From Ornithinimicrobium sufpigmenti (GTDB lineage Bacteria > Actinomycetota > Actinomycetes > Actinomycetales > Dermatophilaceae): a stretch of 64,000 nucleotides of DNA. Where the stretch lies: the NCBI RefSeq assembly GCF_004322775.1, contig NZ_CP036403.1, positions 3,162,001-3,226,000 of the forward strand, in the 5' to 3' direction. Position numbers and translations under genes: made by a program. Below, piece by piece: positions 9,593 to 11,095 of the stretch. Under the pieces are notes generated by a model. The model was not told the DNA's origin and did no database searches. It was given only the letters and a program-made list of their open reading frames with translations. Numbering within the stretch: position 1 is the stretch's first letter; the number at the start of each line of letters is the position of its first letter.

Positions 9593-9654
9593 GCACAACC
9601 TGGGATCAGGGTGGCGCCCCGGAACCACGCCTGCCGCATGCCCCAGGGTCGTGC
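9593..9654. repeat. Palindromic repeat unit 1, left of nuclease gene
   Basis: Starts GCACAACCTGGG and ends CCCAGGGTCGTGC, so its ends are inverted copies of each other. It begins 2 nt after the MFS stop and overlaps unit 2 by two bases. It is the most diverged of the three units. Confidence 0.6.
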
Positions 9655-9735
9655 ATAACCTTGCCTCCAGATTGTGCTGAGAAATCACCCTGGCGCACGT
9701 GGTATCCCCGGCAAAACCTGGGATCAAGGTTGTGC
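9653..9735. repeat. Palindromic repeat unit 2, left of nuclease gene
   Basis: An 83-bp unit starting GCATAACCTTGCCTCCAG and ending CTGGGATCAAGGTTGTGC: imperfect terminal inverted repeats. Its internal TTGTGCTGAG and TCACC blocks reappear in reverse complement in unit 3 beyond the gene, so units 2 and 3 form a large inverted pair around the nuclease gene. Confidence 0.7.
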
Positions 9736-9853
9736 GACCTGCGACCTGCCACGCCTGCGACCTGCGGCGTTTGACCCCCGCCGCCCGCACCGCCCCCGTG
9801 AACTTCGGCCCGCGTCCTCGAGACCGGATCGCGTGACTTTCTCAGTGGCACAC

Positions 9854-10843
9854 TCACGCGGTCGCGCGGGCCGCGGCCTCGGCACGGGCGATCGCGGCCA
9901 GGATCTTGCGCCGAACCACCCGAGGGTTCCCCACATCCTCCCAGCTCAGCCGCACGACCTCGTAGCCGAGGGAGCGTAGGGCGTCCTCTCGCAGCTTCTC
10001 GGCGTGCAGGGCGTCAGGGCTGACGTACTTGCCCTTGCCGTCAAACTCCACGAGCACCCGCCAGCGCCCCAGCTTGAGGTCGGCGTAGACCGTGCGGTCG
10101 CCCAGATCCACCGGGTACTGCGGGAGGAGCGGGCCGAACCCCAGCATCTGCAGCAGCCATCGTGACCGGCTCTCGCCGACCGACTCGCTACGACCGTCGG
10201 CCAGCTCCACCACCTCGCGCACCACGCCGCTGGCGATGCCGAAACCCTCCTGCAGGCCTCGTTCGATGTCCTCCTCGACTCGTGCACGCGCCGGTCCTCG
10301 CCGTTGCCCCATCCTCTTGCGGTCCGTCGTCTCGGCCAGGTGCAGCACCCCGTCGAGGCAGACCAACCCGGCCTCGGCCCCATGCAGGGCCGCCACCTGC
10401 AGGGCCGCCAGTGCCGGGCGCACGACGTGGAGGCCGTCGACCTCGACGACCCAGCCGTGCTCGACCGGCCGATGGACGAAGATCGTCTCGTCGTGGCGCC
10501 CACGCCCCCCGTCGGTCCTGACCAGGTGCACCAGGCCGTCGGAGCCGAAGTACGCAAGCTCGTGCACCATCAGTGCGCTCTCGTGGCTCAGCGCGTGATG
10601 CCCAGCGGGATGAGCAGCCAGAGTGTGCCCCACCGCTCGCGTCCGCAGCTCCGCCCGCTCCCAGGGCGTGGCAGCCGCGTAGGCGCTGCCCAGCACGAAC
10701 GCCCCTCGGCGCACCCGCACGAGCACCTTGGTCCTCACCAGCGCGTCCACGATGTGCCGGGTCACCCCCGGCAGCGCCAGGAGCTCAGCGCTGCTGGCCA
10801 CCCCACCCTGAGCCTTCATGAGCTCGACGATCGCAGTCTCCAT
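9854..10843 (-). CDS. Winged-helix (AbiEi-like) plus DUF559/Vsr-like nuclease protein
   Basis: A 329-residue two-domain protein. Residues 1-50 look like the winged-helix domain found at the N terminus of AbiEi-type antitoxins (SSAELLALPGVTRHIVDALV, then a VRRGAFVLG hairpin). Residues about 225-325 look like a DUF559/Vsr-type PD-(D/E)XK nuclease fold: ESRSRWLL, then YADL, LVEFDGKGKY and REDALRSLGYEVVRL; the D, E-x-D and K positions expected at the active site are present. I take the ATG at 10843; an upstream extension is open but unlike coding sequence. There is no strong ribosome binding site. It stands alone between palindromic repeats. Its role (repair, defence or selfish nuclease) cannot be told from sequence. 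Confidence 0.75.
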   Translation of the reverse strand: METAIVELMKAQGGVASSAELLALPGVTRHIVDALVRTKVLVRVRRGAFVLGSAYAAATPWERAELRTRAVGHTLAAHPAGHHALSHESALMVHELAYFGSDGLVHLVRTDGGRGRHDETIFVHRPVEHGWVVEVDGLHVVRPALAALQVAALHGAEAGLVCLDGVLHLAETTDRKRMGQRRGPARARVEEDIERGLQEGFGIASGVVREVVELADGRSESVGESRSRWLLQMLGFGPLLPQYPVDLGDRTVYADLKLGRWRVLVEFDGKGKYVSPDALHAEKLREDALRSLGYEVVRLSWEDVGNPRVVRRKILAAIARAEAAARATA

Positions 10844-10932
10844 GGCTGCCAGTCTGCCGCCGTGCTGATGCTTCGACCGGGTTATCCACAGGTTGCAGCT
10901 GGATGACGACGCACCGGGGCCCTGTGCACTCT

Positions 10933-11015
10933 GCACGACCTTGATCCCAGAAAAGGCGGGTGGTGCCACGCGCTCGGCGGTGAATCCTCAGCACAACCCG
11001 GGTTCAAGGAGATGC
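10933..11015. repeat. Palindromic repeat unit 3, right of nuclease gene
   Basis: An 83-bp unit starting GCACGACCTTGATCCCAG and ending GGGTTCAAGGAGATGC. In reverse complement it aligns along its length to unit 2 (shared CTGGGATCAAGGT, TTGTGCTGAG and TCACC blocks). Together they bracket the nuclease gene as long inverted repeats. Confidence 0.7.
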
Positions 11016-11062
11016 GGGACGGGTCGTGAGGAGGCGAGGGAGCGAGCGCACCCGGCACAGCA

Positions 11063-11095
11063 ACGGGCCCCCGACCAGATCGGTCGGGGGCCCGT
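11063..11095 (-). terminator. Terminator after rplKA
   Basis: Perfect 14-bp stem ACGGGCCCCCGACC/GGTCGGGGGCCCGT with a 5-nt loop, 55 nt beyond the rplA stop. There is no T run, which is common in high-GC actinobacteria. Confidence 0.75.

Follow-up and report, generated by a model that had tools for sequence, protein, structure and literature searches.

A predicted AbiEi-like nuclease gene flanked by matching palindromic units in Ornithinimicrobium sufpigmenti suggests an overlooked type of repeat-associated element

Among the closest described relatives in layout of the locus reported here are the REPtrons (RAYT/TnpAREP with REP/REPIN repeats) and the TIRtrons (TIRYT with TIRs). The sections of the literature drawn on here describe genes that are bordered by palindromes, mostly single-copy and vertically inherited, with cognate repeats scattered through the genome and several gene-repeat sets per genome (PMC8049555, PMC3116915, PMC8266576, PMC3733652). 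The layout common to both is also that of a locus within a 64,000-nucleotide (nt) stretch of Ornithinimicrobium sufpigmenti DNA (NZ_CP036403.1, positions 3,162,001 to 3,226,000; here, the window), where a gene for a predicted nuclease lies between two matching palindromic units. The locus appears to exemplify an element family that is common in Actinobacteria, consisting of a palindromic unit, a DnaA-box-like motif, a gene for an AbiEi-like winged helix joined to a Vsr/EDxHD-type nuclease, and a matching unit. On balance, we think that the gene, together with the unit on either side of it, probably, though by no means certainly, forms one REPtron-like element with an unrelated enzyme and the mechanism proposed below. 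The element points to a kind of repeat-associated genetic element that has gone unnoticed.

The gene lies on the minus strand at positions 9854 to 10843 (stop codon included), encodes 329 amino acids, and likely starts at the ATG at 10843. Its upstream unit (10933 to 11015, minus strand) and its downstream unit (9653 to 9735, plus strand) each comprise a pair of near-palindromic 25-mers separated by a spacer of about 33 nt, and the two are inverted relative to each other, as a prior sequence-only reading of the window had described for two repeats of about 83 nt around a nuclease gene. The matched arms (9648 to 9735 and 10933 to 11020) span 88 nt at 70% complementarity, and the units proper are about 83 nt. 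The same reading had placed a third unit at 9593; repeat sequence is present there, but as a lone 25-nt arm (9593 to 9617, plus strand), so that three arms are arrayed on that side. An 18-nt core of the units, GCACAACCTTGATCCCAG, matches three times in the window with up to three mismatches, against 0.02 expected. Folding of these two units is weak (z of -1.4 upstream and -2.2 downstream).

All Pfam matches of the protein fall below the curated cut-offs (AbiEi_4, 22.4 against 25 bits; DUF559, 18.5 against 20.6; MTES_1575, 19.1 against 38.2). By structure prediction, its N-terminal part has an AbiEi fold with a winged helix, and its catalytic domain has the fold of an EDxHD homing endonuclease, the nearest catalytic fold. 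We are confident in the predicted combination of an AbiEi-like winged helix with a Vsr/homing-endonuclease-like nuclease, though the Pfam scores of this member are subthreshold. Residues E224, D255, E266, D268, and K272 are invariant and are candidate counterparts of the EDxHD active-site residues (3r3p). Five paralogues are present in the same genome, the next best being 59% identical to the window gene, which is the single copy of its clade; no near-identical second copy of the kind expected of an insertion sequence was found in this genome. The ratio of nonsynonymous to synonymous substitution rates (dN/dS) is 0.14 to 0.30 in 11 pairs, indicating strong purifying selection, and the gene appears to be conserved and single-copy. 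Among the matches listed (120 of 976), family members are named only as hypothetical, DUF559, endonuclease-domain, AbiEi-domain, or very-short-patch-repair proteins.

Bracketing of the gene by matching units recurs beside many homologues. To score it, we compared the two 350-nt flanks of each gene and kept their highest-scoring inverted match, with a score of 15 as the threshold for a pair. In the 74 of 80 loci examined, a score of at least 15 was reached in 42, compared with 30 of 3,337 equal windows from the same loci, and a score of at least 20 in 31, compared with none of the 3,337. When these were pooled with loci from the genus, 53 of 99 distinct loci scored at least 15 and 35 scored at least 20, versus 14 and 3, respectively, of 2,454 flank pairs taken from different loci; the five strongest of these mismatched pairs (at least 18) include pairs of related loci. 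Since loci are related, we also counted clusters at 60% identity, and a pair was present in 32 of 55. The units of the 53 bracketed loci have a median length of 91 nt; at the median, upstream units end 97 nt ahead of the start codon and downstream units start 20 nt past the stop codon. With RNA parameters, the fold z is below -2 for 43 of the 53 upstream units and 40 of the 53 downstream units. In a relative (G019), an upstream unit is visible by eye, yet it scores below the pair threshold. The clearest bracket in the O. sufpigmenti genome belongs to a paralogue at 3140.6k, which has 53-bp matching hairpins of unrelated sequence (L020:1310-1362 and 2531-2583).

A second shared feature lies between the upstream unit and the gene. 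The motif TGTGGA[CT], on either strand, is present in the 250 nt preceding 84 of 99 genes but in only 168 of 4,178 control windows (4.0%), and downstream of 1 of 99; by clusters at 60% identity, it is upstream in 48 of 55. It sits at -47 to -49 in 33 genes, and in many others it is reversed near -58 or -88. At the window locus, it lies 47 nt upstream of the ATG (10882 to 10890, minus strand; TTATCCACA on the plus strand). The motif resembles a DnaA box, and DnaA may control expression of the gene. By eye, a stretch like CACACT/AGACTC/CATCCTG also recurs about 10 to 15 nt before the start codons of homologues and is perhaps the -10 element of a leaderless transcript.

Comparison across loci shows, at the sequence level, that units go with protein clades. 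Among 1,378 pairs of the 53 bracketed loci (units counted as shared at a score of at least 15), units are shared in 2 of 1,327 pairs with less than 55% protein identity, in 5 of 26 pairs with 55 to 65% identity that lie in different neighborhoods, and in 11 of 14 pairs with at least 65% identity, all 14 of which lie in the same neighborhood. Exact GGNCAAGGTTGTGCACC occurs in 5 of 31 genus genomes, at 11, 4, 6, 1, and 3 places in G012, G013, G014, G016, and G018, respectively; the corresponding gene subfamily, with such units at the gene, is found in G012, G013, G014, and G018. With one mismatch allowed, 14 of 31 genomes match, the nine others having one to three matches, some or all of which are chance; the reversed control gave one match over all 31. 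G011 has a relative with a variant unit and no GGNCAAGGTTGTGCACC match. At the rplA site of G016 (L083), there are two to three decayed units and no gene; in G012 and G013, this site holds both. As for units of the Arthrobacter type, the genomes of L148 and L154 each have two that are not at the gene, and in the genome of L162 the single match is at the gene; none were found in four of the seven genomes searched, and reversed controls gave none.

Units are also dispersed in the O. sufpigmenti genome (G000). The core GCACAACCTTGATCCCAG (up to three mismatches) has 17 matches in 4.17 Mb, versus 1 for the reversed pattern, and the three-mismatch match at 925035 looks like chance. A profile built from 14 units of G000 and G019, which therefore matches its training units by construction, locates nine units at seven sites in G000 and six units at four sites in G019; six further genomes gave no match under an E value of 1e-3 (best, 0.00125). 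The two genomes have four unit sites in common, three G000 sites having no unit match in G019; three sites are retained beside the same genes, and the nuclease gene is at the same site in both. A tRNA-Asn gene (L012:4043-4116) is situated about 110 nt from one of the units, and a TPP riboswitch (L013:4299-4404) adjoins another unit site. Six of the seven G000 sites lack the nuclease gene, and no gene remnant was found in any of 17 solo-unit loci tested. The sequence-only reading had counted units scattered away from DUF559 genes against itself; this partly occurs, as it does in RAYT systems.

Since its split from the nearest relative, G000 has acquired one unit, at 534554, which is missing in all seven aligned relatives, including G019. 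Another short repeat, of the GGACAAAGCGTGTCGCCGGTC type, lies beside it (L009:4715-4759, G000 near 534.7k); in G019, this type recurs about 48 times, frequently as tandem copies, and G001 and G023 have a few matches. The gap that corresponds to 1964k holds, in G018, a unit of that genome's own type, and the neighbors vary. The rplA site is filled by a homologue in 8 of 30 genus genomes, as judged on 620 nt downstream of rplA, and these copies do not form one clade; the block is not, then, at the same site in all relatives, the other outcome that had been named in advance as contrary. Other palindromic repeats, by eye of different sequences, follow rplA in L085 (G026), L091 (G005), and L096 (G010), with no nuclease gene in the 620 nt seen. 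At the rplA site of G025 (1477668-1478563), the homologue matched in separate pieces, and its frame may be broken. The suggestion that the unit can move or copy itself is thus borne out only in part: one ragged-edged unit gain speaks for it, but the gene looks conserved and single-copy and no transposition of the block was seen. A search confined to the Y1 (RAYT-type) transposase family, PF01797, was positive in 5 of 14 control genomes and in none of 31 genus genomes.

The locus compares with REPtrons on several counts. A palindrome-bordered gene and repeats dispersed in the genome are common to both; the enzyme differs, having a predicted Vsr/homing-endonuclease-like fold rather than that of an HUH/Y1 transposase, and the units are longer, the copies few, and the gene preceded by a DnaA-box-like motif. 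An alignment of 14 units of G000 and G019, inspected by eye, shows neither a GTAG nor a CGTC end tag. Because the HUH enzyme, the defining part of a REPtron, is lacking, we do not classify the element as one, although by analogy it may work like one. The earlier comparison to REP/RAYT systems with a PD-(D/E)XK-type nuclease in place of the transposase finds support far outside the window locus, in homologues bracketed by their own units, in solo units, and in the failure to find a Y1 transposase in any of 31 genus genomes. Vsr, TnsA, and Hjc nucleases are also among the closest known systems. From the EDxHD homing endonuclease I-Bth0305I, the window gene differs in being chromosomal between host genes and in having an AbiEi-like N-terminal domain and flanking matching units; from the AbiEi antitoxin of AbiE, it differs by the nuclease domain. 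We found no report in the open-license literature searched that joins such a nuclease to cognate palindromic repeats, and for this reason we call the element new in kind; if the kind is defined as an enzyme plus bordering palindromes, it would be a variant of that kind.

We infer that the protein binds and cuts its units and drives their dispersal. The winged helix would bind the cognate unit, and the nuclease would nick or cut this unit, possibly when it is extruded as a cruciform or single-stranded. Units could then occasionally be copied to new intergenic sites as the break is repaired or replication proceeds from it, the gene itself being mostly inherited in place, and DnaA would couple expression to replication. 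A broader proposal, which we find possible but would not lean on, is that the REPtron principle arose a second time, independently, as actinobacterial AbiEi-Vsr nucleases under DnaA control, each recognizing its own palindromic unit and spreading it by nicking during replication. Such enzymes would then account for some of the interspersed palindromes in actinobacteria that have no RAYT.

Several observations weigh against a REPtron-like element. Direct-orientation matches between flanks are as frequent as inverted ones (54 of 99 loci), as self-palindromes would give, so that pair matching is established but inversion across the family is not. No pair reaches the threshold in 46 of 99 loci, including two of the five paralogues. 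Pairs with at least 65% identity, all in one neighborhood, may share units through descent; sharing beyond descent in place therefore rests on the five telling pairs, all in one clade (core CAAGGTTGTGC), and at 55 to 65% identity in the same neighborhood units are shared in 0 of 11 pairs. Unit copy numbers are low (nine and six), and by eye the units flanking the window gene are more diverged than most solo units. The gain at 534554 falls within a difference of about 200 nt that holds another repeat and has ragged edges, and no target duplication is visible at this one aligned gain.

Other explanations must be set against the same data. The protein could be an AbiEi-like DNA-binding regulator, with flanking units as autoregulatory operators and solo units marking a small regulon. 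This is unlikely but has several points in its favor: the predicted AbiEi fold, the three unit sites whose neighboring genes are the same in G000 and G019, and AbiEi itself, which is reported to repress its own promoter and to bind inverted repeats there (PMC3985639). In that account the operator covers the promoter, whereas the upstream units end a median of 97 nt short of the start codon and there is another unit beyond the stop codon; the invariant nuclease residues argue against a regulator as well. A slightly smaller chance falls to a transposon or homing-type mobile gene with the units as its ends and solo units as internally deleted copies. Related genes with similar units in different neighborhoods, the rplA site filled by copies of more than one clade, and the predicted homing-endonuclease fold are consistent with this; the strong purifying selection, the lack of a near-identical second copy in the genome or of gene remnants at the 17 solo-unit loci, and the failure to find a clean empty/filled pair or a target duplication count against it.

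Hitchhiking, in which another enzyme spreads the repeats and these collect near the gene for an unrelated reason, seems improbable to us. Gene-less unit sites do exist, and other repeat families crowd the same gaps, yet each protein clade has its own units on both sides of the gene in many genera, and no Y1 transposase was found in the genus, the one transposase family searched. Least credible, and very improbable, is an AbiE-like defense or toxin-antitoxin gene flanked by ordinary terminators. Weak AbiEi matches for the protein in a defense library and downstream units that begin shortly after the stop codon (20 nt by median) would suit it, but nothing requires the terminators of one gene to match each other in sequence on its two sides or to occur by themselves elsewhere. 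The neighbors here are a major facilitator superfamily (MFS) gene and ribosomal L1 rather than a partner toxin, and no AbiEii nucleotidyltransferase toxin gene is adjacent at this locus, the only one considered for it.

To date, the enzymes associated with REP/REPIN repeats are HUH transposases. For some families of palindromic repeats no enzyme is known; CGTC repeats, for example, "apparently lack a dedicated transposase" (PMC3733652). Should the REPtron-like reading be true, this nuclease family would be a candidate enzyme for such orphan repeats in Actinobacteria, repeat spread might be coupled to the initiation of replication, and there would be many natural pairs of enzyme and repeat in which to study the joint change of a nuclease and its DNA target.

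The gene is bordered by rplA on one side and by a convergent MFS gene on the other (Ribosomal_L1 and MFS_1 matches). Between rplA and the upstream unit lies a perfect 14-nt stem (11063 to 11095, minus strand), a probable rplA terminator that is a neighbor outside the element. Finally, QEUR01000269.1 (L102), titled as an Acidobacteria metagenome-assembled genome, equals L044 (G023:C62) in length (3808) and protein start; G023 is placed in the genus of the window, and the Acidobacteria title looks wrong.
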